From the IMG/VR virus record IMGVR_UViG_3300020171_000122, positions 1-25,872 of that record: a stretch of DNA of 25,872 nt; one strand, given 5' to 3'. The position numbers and the translations under genes are program-made. Shown here one piece after another: positions 1,453 to 2,289 of this stretch. Origin of the DNA: a virus. The notes beneath the pieces are model-generated. The model worked only from the letters and a program-made list of their open reading frames with translations. It was not told where the DNA came from and did not search any database. Position 1 is the stretch's first letter; the number at the start of each line of letters is the position of its first letter.

Positions 1453-2289
1453 ACGGTCGGAGATTTGTTTGCCGGAATCGGTGGATTCCGCCTTGGATTG
1501 GAACGGGCTGGGGGATTCGACATCAAGTGGTCCTGTGAAATCGATCCCTACTGTCGCGCTGTGTACGCCAAGCACTGGCCGGAGACGATGATCTATGGCG
1601 ACATCCGAGAACTCAGAAACCCGCCCTACGTTGATGTCCTCTGCGGTGGATTCCCTTGCACCGATGTCTCAGTTGCCGGAAAACGCCGAGGAATTACTGG
1701 CCCACAAAGCGGACTCTGGTCCGAATTCGCCCGACTCATTGGCGAGGTACGACCACGCTACGCATTCGTGGAGAACGTCCCAGGGTTGCTTAGTGCCGGG
1801 CTTGGACGAGTACTCGGCGACTTGGCCGAGATCGGGTACGATGCGGAATGGGATTGCATACCGGCGTCGGCCGTTGGTGCCCCGCACCGGCGGGATCGGG
1901 TCTGGATTGTGGCCTACGCCGAGATCAACAGACGGGAGTCATGGGGGAAGAATAACGCCGCGCGAGAGCCGAGAAGGCGGGAATCTGATCGAGGCGCTGT
2001 CCGCAAGGATGTGGCCGACCCCGCAATCCCGCGACTGGAAGGGCAAGTCGCAGAGGGGTTCATATTCCGACGGGGACAGGGACTGCCTGCCCAATGCGAT
2101 TGGTGGGCAGTTGAACCCCGTTTGGGTGAGCTGGTTGATGGGCTTCCCCCTGAACTGGCTGGAAGATTCATTCGGGTGGCTAAGGGATGCCCCGACAGAG
2201 TGAACAAGTTACGGGCACTGGGCAACGCAGTAGTGCCTGCCGTTGTTCAATGGATCGGGCGAAGGATCATAGAGCATGACGCCCGCTGA
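1432..2289 (+). CDS. dcm: DNA (cytosine-5-)-methyltransferase
   Basis: A 285-residue C5-cytosine methyltransferase that transfers a methyl group from S-adenosylmethionine to DNA cytosine. All key motifs are present in order: motif I DLFAGIGGF (11-19), the motif II region SCEIDPYC (34-41), motif IV with the catalytic Cys in GGFPCTDVS (Cys76), motif VI ENVPGL (114-119), motif VIII HRRDRVWIVA (152-161), and motif IX/X with LRALGNAVVP (260-269). The segment between VIII and IX (about 165-250), which holds target recognition, is short. No restriction enzyme is adjacent, so it is most likely an orphan phage enzyme protecting phage DNA or altering host expression. Its ATG overlaps the previous stop (ATGA). 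A second frame inside the gene also appears to code. Confidence 0.95.
   Translation: MTPADAITVGDLFAGIGGFRLGLERAGGFDIKWSCEIDPYCRAVYAKHWPETMIYGDIRELRNPPYVDVLCGGFPCTDVSVAGKRRGITGPQSGLWSEFARLIGEVRPRYAFVENVPGLLSAGLGRVLGDLAEIGYDAEWDCIPASAVGAPHRRDRVWIVAYAEINRRESWGKNNAAREPRRRESDRGAVRKDVADPAIPRLEGQVAEGFIFRRGQGLPAQCDWWAVEPRLGELVDGLPPELAGRFIRVAKGCPDRVNKLRALGNAVVPAVVQWIGRRIIEHDAR
1595..2203 (+). CDS. Overprinted gene inside dcm: WPTP / LNPxWVxWLMGFP family protein
   Basis: A 202-residue ORF in the +1 frame inside the cytosine methyltransferase gene. Its protein has the hallmarks of a phage family I know from memory as stand-alone proteins, often called hypothetical or loosely DNA methylase: SLARYDHATHSWRTSQ (about 48-63), WPRSGTMRNG (77-86), RRPLVPRTGG (91-100), two WPTP motifs (106-109, 140-143) and LNPVWVSWLMGFP (173-185). 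GGAGA at 1581-1585 lies about 9 bases before the ATG. SGLWPTP is the shifted reading of the methyltransferase motif VIII region, and WLMGFP is the shifted reading of the segment before motif IX. Function unknown. The alternative is a passive open frame maintained by the methyltransferase sequence. Confidence 0.6.
   Translation: MATSENSETRPTLMSSAVDSLAPMSQLPENAEELLAHKADSGPNSPDSLARYDHATHSWRTSQGCLVPGLDEYSATWPRSGTMRNGIAYRRRPLVPRTGGIGSGLWPTPRSTDGSHGGRITPRESREGGNLIEALSARMWPTPQSRDWKGKSQRGSYSDGDRDCLPNAIGGQLNPVWVSWLMGFPLNWLEDSFGWLRDAPTE

Follow-up and report, generated by a model that had tools for sequence, protein, structure and literature searches.

The window analysed here is a 25,872-base virus record, IMGVR_UViG_3300020171_000122, taken at its full length, and a phage major head protein gene lies on the opposite strand of the same record. 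On the forward strand, from 1432 to 2289, it contains a C5 DNA-cytosine methyltransferase gene (dcm, or alpha; frame 1) encoding 285 amino acids, whose product matches phrog_363 (E 1e-80) and PF00145 (E 1.5e-47), the latter through residues 8-169, which cover no more of the 324-position profile than positions 2-168. Of the catalytic half, this product contains motifs I, IV (PCxx), VI (ENV) and VIII, and motif X (LRALGNAVVPAVV, 2209 to 2247, forward strand) follows shortly past the stop codon of the second reading frame described below, such that frame 1 of the window carries motifs I-VIII and X. An earlier note on this DNA had credited frame 1 with all of the C5 motifs, but in the window sequence we find no canonical motif IX in the frame-1 chain, the PF00145 match stopping at 168 of 324, and LNPVWVSWLMGFP (within 2111-2158) belongs to frame 2. 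Because the PF00145 match ends where it does and motif IX is mostly in frame 2 across the family, we class frame 1 as the catalytic part of an enzyme rather than as a complete single-chain enzyme. A tandem repeat with 6, 18 and 24 bp units, and with low-complexity open reading frames in several frames, is located upstream of the locus at 465-670.

Within dcm the +1 frame (frame 2) is open for 202 codons on the forward strand, from an ATG at 1595 to a stop at 2203, and GGAGA at 1581 to 1585, nine bases upstream of that ATG, is its likely ribosome-binding site; both features are as the earlier note described them. The 202-residue product, the proposed beta subunit, belongs to the phrog_1008 family (E 4.9e-28), as do the frame-2 products of 43 of the 43 members of our first alignment, and it has no match in Pfam and NCBIfam profile searches or in a sequence search of solved structures. 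The frame-2 motifs listed in the note are likewise present, as shifted readings of the dcm segments it named. Reading from the left, with z the conservation of a frame-2 column beyond frame-1 constraint, there is a SLARYDHATHSWRTSQ...WPRSGTMRNG block (1736 to 1852; z up to 27) overprinted on the motif VI-VIII region of dcm, then two WPTP modules (1907 to 2023; LWPTP at 1907-1921 and MWPTP at 2009-2023) in the position of the target-recognition region (TRD), and then LNPVWVSWLMGFPLNW (2111 to 2158; z up to 41), which is motif IX of the proposed pair and has in-frame motif IX homologues in single-chain dcm products (L018 and others). WPTP-type modules of single-chain enzymes are situated between motifs VIII and IX, and frame 1 is weakly conserved across the WPTP stretch, where the frame-2 z peaks at 36. 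When modelled alone with AF2 the frame-2 protein of the window gives no confident fold (pLDDT 62.8, pTM 0.28), and it was left out of the fold search.

Several types of evidence show coding constraint on both frames. Taken by itself, the window gene has a +1 frame that is more open than in its synonymous-codon shuffles (P = 0.007). In a sample of 67 distinct dcm genes (43-67% GC), collected by the dcm protein alone and thus blind to frame 2, all but one (66 of 67) contain an uninterrupted +1 stretch of 150 or more codons, and 97% are more open than their own synonymous shuffles (P < 0.05); in the +2 control frame none of the 67 has such a stretch and none reaches P < 0.05. Summed over these genes there are 469 stops in the +1 frame, with 707 expected. 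Column by column, frame-2 residues are conserved beyond the constraint from frame 1 with a mean z of 6.2 and 9.2 inside the overlap, compared with -0.04 before the frame-2 start and 1.5 after its stop. With the roles reversed, frame 1 is conserved beyond frame-2 constraint, if weakly so in the variable WPTP-module region.

Close relatives show the same dual constraint. Among 63 pairs, which have common ancestry and are hence not independent trials, the differences per codon at positions 1, 2 and 3 are 0.12, 0.07 and 0.34 before the overlap and 0.20, 0.12 and 0.23 inside it, third-position change being the lower inside. For 16 such pairs, subject to the same non-independence, the observed/expected ratios for changes silent in frame 1 and altering frame 2 versus the reverse are 2.68 versus 0.46 before the overlap and 1.47 versus 1.29 within it, indicating that inside the overlap both frames are constrained about equally. 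Canonical dcm genes served as a negative control: 14 of them, taken from the same bacterial genomes and matching the whole of PF00145, contain 201 stops in the +1 frame against 190 expected, and the frame-2 profile finds a weak shadow in them at most (best E 3e-6); of the 14 dcm genes matching PF00145 at about positions 1-170 only, 13 have an open and conserved second frame. Initiation signals are also enriched: a frame-2 ATG with a Shine-Dalgarno (SD) sequence occurs near the window's position in 48 loci, where 20.9 are expected and the shuffle maximum is 32, and in another subfamily tandem starts (RTGAATG) are found with one common SD region (43 of 247), both of which support separate initiation of frame 2. 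The dual coding proposed from the window sequence is thus borne out by openness, residue conservation, suppressed third-position change and start signals, and the frame-2 open reading frame encodes a conserved protein and is no shadow of dcm.

What this protein is related to becomes apparent at its C-terminus, where the conserved sequence LNPxWVEWLMGFPxGW aligns with the segment of single-chain enzymes that holds motif IX. Since the IX-X half of frame-2 products goes unrecognised by Pfam, homology was tested against single-chain relatives. The C-terminal 120 residues of the single-chain dcm product of L018 match the +1-frame products of seven loci at E values of 1e-60 to 3e-21: L217 (80%, 1e-60), L253 (1e-36), L244, L250, L246, L232 (5e-23) and L274. 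An AF2 model of the L018 chain is confident in both its catalytic and its IX/X halves (pLDDT 90-98), with the WPTP stretch disordered, and aligns along its whole length with M.HhaI (Z 23.5, model residues 2-362 on 10-321), with IX and X placed alike. From these sequence matches, the C-terminal half of the frame-2 protein and that of the methyltransferases (recognition region, motif IX and sometimes motif X) are homologous. The suggestion that the family was born by overprinting of dcm and later set free is not supported: the N-terminal half, lying over motifs IV-VIII, looks overprinted and seems to be the only part that is, while the C-terminal half is methyltransferase sequence and did not arise de novo.

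Of 348 loci, 327 have motif IX in just one of the two frames, and for motif X the same is true of 328 (about 94% each), so most loci hold one motif set spread across two frames. The window's arrangement, in which frame 2 has IX and frame 1 has X, is shared by 267 of the 348; both motifs are in frame 1 in 29 and both in frame 2 in 15. The roughly 29 loci with IX and X in frame 1 still retain the frame-2 WPTP protein, which must therefore do something besides supplying motif IX. In L232, L244, L246, L250, L253, L274 and similar loci, frame 1 ends just past motif VIII and frame 2 carries the WPTP modules, IX and X; the isolated phages Lilbooboo (gp32/gp33) and Upyo (gp54/gp53) have this L232-type split. 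In L024 and L026 there is a one-ORF fusion in which dcm (I-VIII and X) is joined to the WPTP modules and IX.

Individual loci depart from these arrangements in other ways. L214 and L217 have catalytic parts that are 89% identical and yet carry the IX-X half in different frames, a natural frame swap. L114, L171, L189 and L206 have an in-frame stop that interrupts dcm, through either sequencing error or loss of alpha, and an open frame 2. Two dcm/frame-2 pairs are in tandem in L140 (1812-3716), and L287 (2478-5717) has a frame-2 open reading frame of 1079 codons that runs into sequence resembling an adenine methyltransferase type.

We scanned viral contigs, bacterial genomes, and phage, plasmid and E. 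coli records for the frame-2 protein, considering best hits only. Among these hits there are 356 distinct copies, of which 352 overlap a dcm in its +1 frame, by a median of 758 nt, and the remaining four lie within one open reading frame together with dcm motifs. No free-standing copy lacking a dcm was seen among the 356, although rare ones are possible; the earlier note had named stand-alone relatives and proposed that the family may have been set free from dcm later, which these best hits do not support. Entries that appear to stand alone can come from a gene caller choosing frame 2, as with DosHalletts gp71 and the SOVA965 'DNA-cytosine methyltransferase', both of which are frame-2 annotations with dcm open underneath. 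In Lilbooboo (gp32/gp33) and Upyo (gp54/gp53) both open reading frames of the pair are annotated as DNA methylase; the phages SG4 and K1ind2 have the pair too. In the Kagunavirus fTaEco01 (L387, 1617-2309) the frame-2 open reading frame, TE1_032, is annotated as a 'putative Mte8-like protein', a name that we presume may point to a known methyltransferase entry. The hosts or bins include Proteobacteria, Actinobacteria, Firmicutes, Myxococcales, Verrucomicrobia, Nitrospirae, Patescibacteria and others. The E. coli copies are in prophages, and a search there for a member tied to restriction (M.EcoHK31I itself) yielded only prophage genes in the regions opened. The same two-frame arrangement is thus present in hundreds of phages and prophages, with the second protein unknown or mislabelled in databases, and we found no description of the overlap in phages in the literature searched, which was covered in part.

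Enzymes made of two polypeptides provide the closest comparisons. Lee, Kam and Shaw reportedly showed in 1995 that the beta subunit of M.EcoHK31I is nested in the alpha gene in another frame and that both are required for activity. The alpha chain of M.EcoHK31I contains I-VIII and X and its beta chain IX, M.AquI is divided into alpha (I-VIII) and beta (IX-X), and split fragments of M.SssI re-assemble best when the cut is between VIII and the TRD (PMC3404938). Likened by motif layout, the window shares the motif partition of M.EcoHK31I (C5, YGGCCR), which comes from a bacterial restriction-modification system, whereas the window pair is a phage gene; the phage family also differs in spanning many phyla, in its variable number of WPTP modules and in its several motif arrangements. 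The M.AquI division (alpha with I-VIII, beta with the TRD half and IX-X) is common to the L232-type loci and Lilbooboo gp32/gp33, an actinophage variant, but unlike M.AquI the second phage open reading frame extends upstream in the +1 frame over the catalytic motifs, and the window alpha retains X. Single-chain phage C5 methyltransferases, of the M.HhaI fold, share the catalytic half and, in L018-type enzymes, the IX/X half as well, but as one chain rather than as two overlapping genes. The phrog_1008 label, 'DNA methyltransferase', implies catalysis, but for its member in the window motifs I-VIII are in the other frame. A nested two-subunit methyltransferase is a kind already known, and the phage family is far commoner than annotation suggests.

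It is the sharing of motifs as in M.EcoHK31I and M.AquI, together with the M.SssI split, that leads us to assign the catalytic subunit to frame 1 and the partner subunit to frame 2, and other accounts of the overlap fare less well. There is next to no prospect that frame 2 goes untranslated, as a by-product of codons conserved in dcm: shadow similarity is real, in that canonical dcm genes do give weak frame-2 profile matches, but the by-product account is rejected, and a pure shadow frame refuted, by every comparison made, whether with synonymous shuffles, with control frames and regions or with canonical dcm genes. Programmed +1 frameshifting, by which frame 1 (I-VIII) would continue into frame 2 (TRD and IX) as one polypeptide with no separate frame-2 start, fits loci of the L232 type, where I-VIII and TRD-IX-X occur in successive frames. 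We nonetheless regard it as very improbable, since frame-2 conservation reaches well upstream of VIII, which a shift after VIII would not require, frame-2 starts and SD sites are enriched, and the motif X that most loci carry in frame 1 would be lost by a single shift.

Somewhat less improbable, but still unlikely, is that frame 2 encodes a separate phage protein, such as an anti-restriction protein or a methyltransferase regulator, which is overprinted on dcm and acts outside the enzyme. Frame 2 carries separate start signals, and its N-terminal block has no equivalent in the methyltransferases; the frame is also retained in some loci with IX and X in frame 1 and is open in the four loci with an interrupted dcm, all as would be expected of such a protein. 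Its C-terminal half is nevertheless homologous to that of the methyltransferases, it supplies X where frame 1 lacks it, the frame-2 part is fused to dcm in L024 and L026, and no copy is away from dcm among the 356 best-hit copies.

The reading that we prefer, and on these analyses consider highly probable, is that the locus specifies one C5 DNA-cytosine methyltransferase made as two subunits from nested genes. Frame 1 would encode the catalytic subunit, with motifs I-VIII and X, and frame 2, from its own start codon, a smaller subunit consisting of the N-terminal domain overprinted on IV-VIII, the WPTP modules and motif IX. The modules, in the target-recognition position, would set specificity, and the two products, once translated, would be expected to assemble into an active enzyme. 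Methylation by phage methyltransferases protects from host restriction, and the assembled enzyme would methylate the phage DNA to this end. Against this reading stand the low confidence of the AF2 model of the frame-2 protein, the disorder of the WPTP stretch in the L018 model, the roughly 29 loci that keep the protein with IX and X already in frame 1, and the four loci in which dcm is interrupted and frame 2 open.

In favour of the two-subunit reading, the frame-1 products of overlap loci cover only the first half of PF00145, whereas canonical dcm genes from the same genomes cover all of it. As for origin, we infer that frame 1 has held the catalytic motifs since ancient times and that the IX(-X) half, which most loci now read in frame 2, is itself methyltransferase sequence. 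L232-like loci could have been produced by a frameshift between VIII and the TRD together with a new upstream start, which would leave the frame-2 N-terminus overprinted on IV-VIII, and later shifts would bring X back to frame 1; these events may have occurred in the reverse order. Frame swaps appear to be recent in places, as between L214 and L217. More tentatively, and with our judgement falling just short of evenly balanced, there may be a large, phylum-spanning group of phage methyltransferases with the recognition half in the +1 frame of the catalytic half and the beta N-terminus overprinted, in which recombination moves the recognition half between frames and alters the number of modules. 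We suppose that recombination shifts the recognition half because WPTP modules come as repeats and can lie in either frame, and that the overlap may thereby diversify methylation specificity.

If the two-subunit reading is correct, many 'complete' phage cytosine methyltransferase annotations would describe the alpha half only, with the second subunit either absent from the annotation or filed as unknown or mislabelled (phrog_1008), and anyone who recoded frame 1 of such a dcm for cloning would presumably obtain an inactive enzyme. A same-strand overlap of hundreds of codons that spans many phyla and includes natural frame swaps would also offer a test bed for the origin and persistence of overlapping genes.
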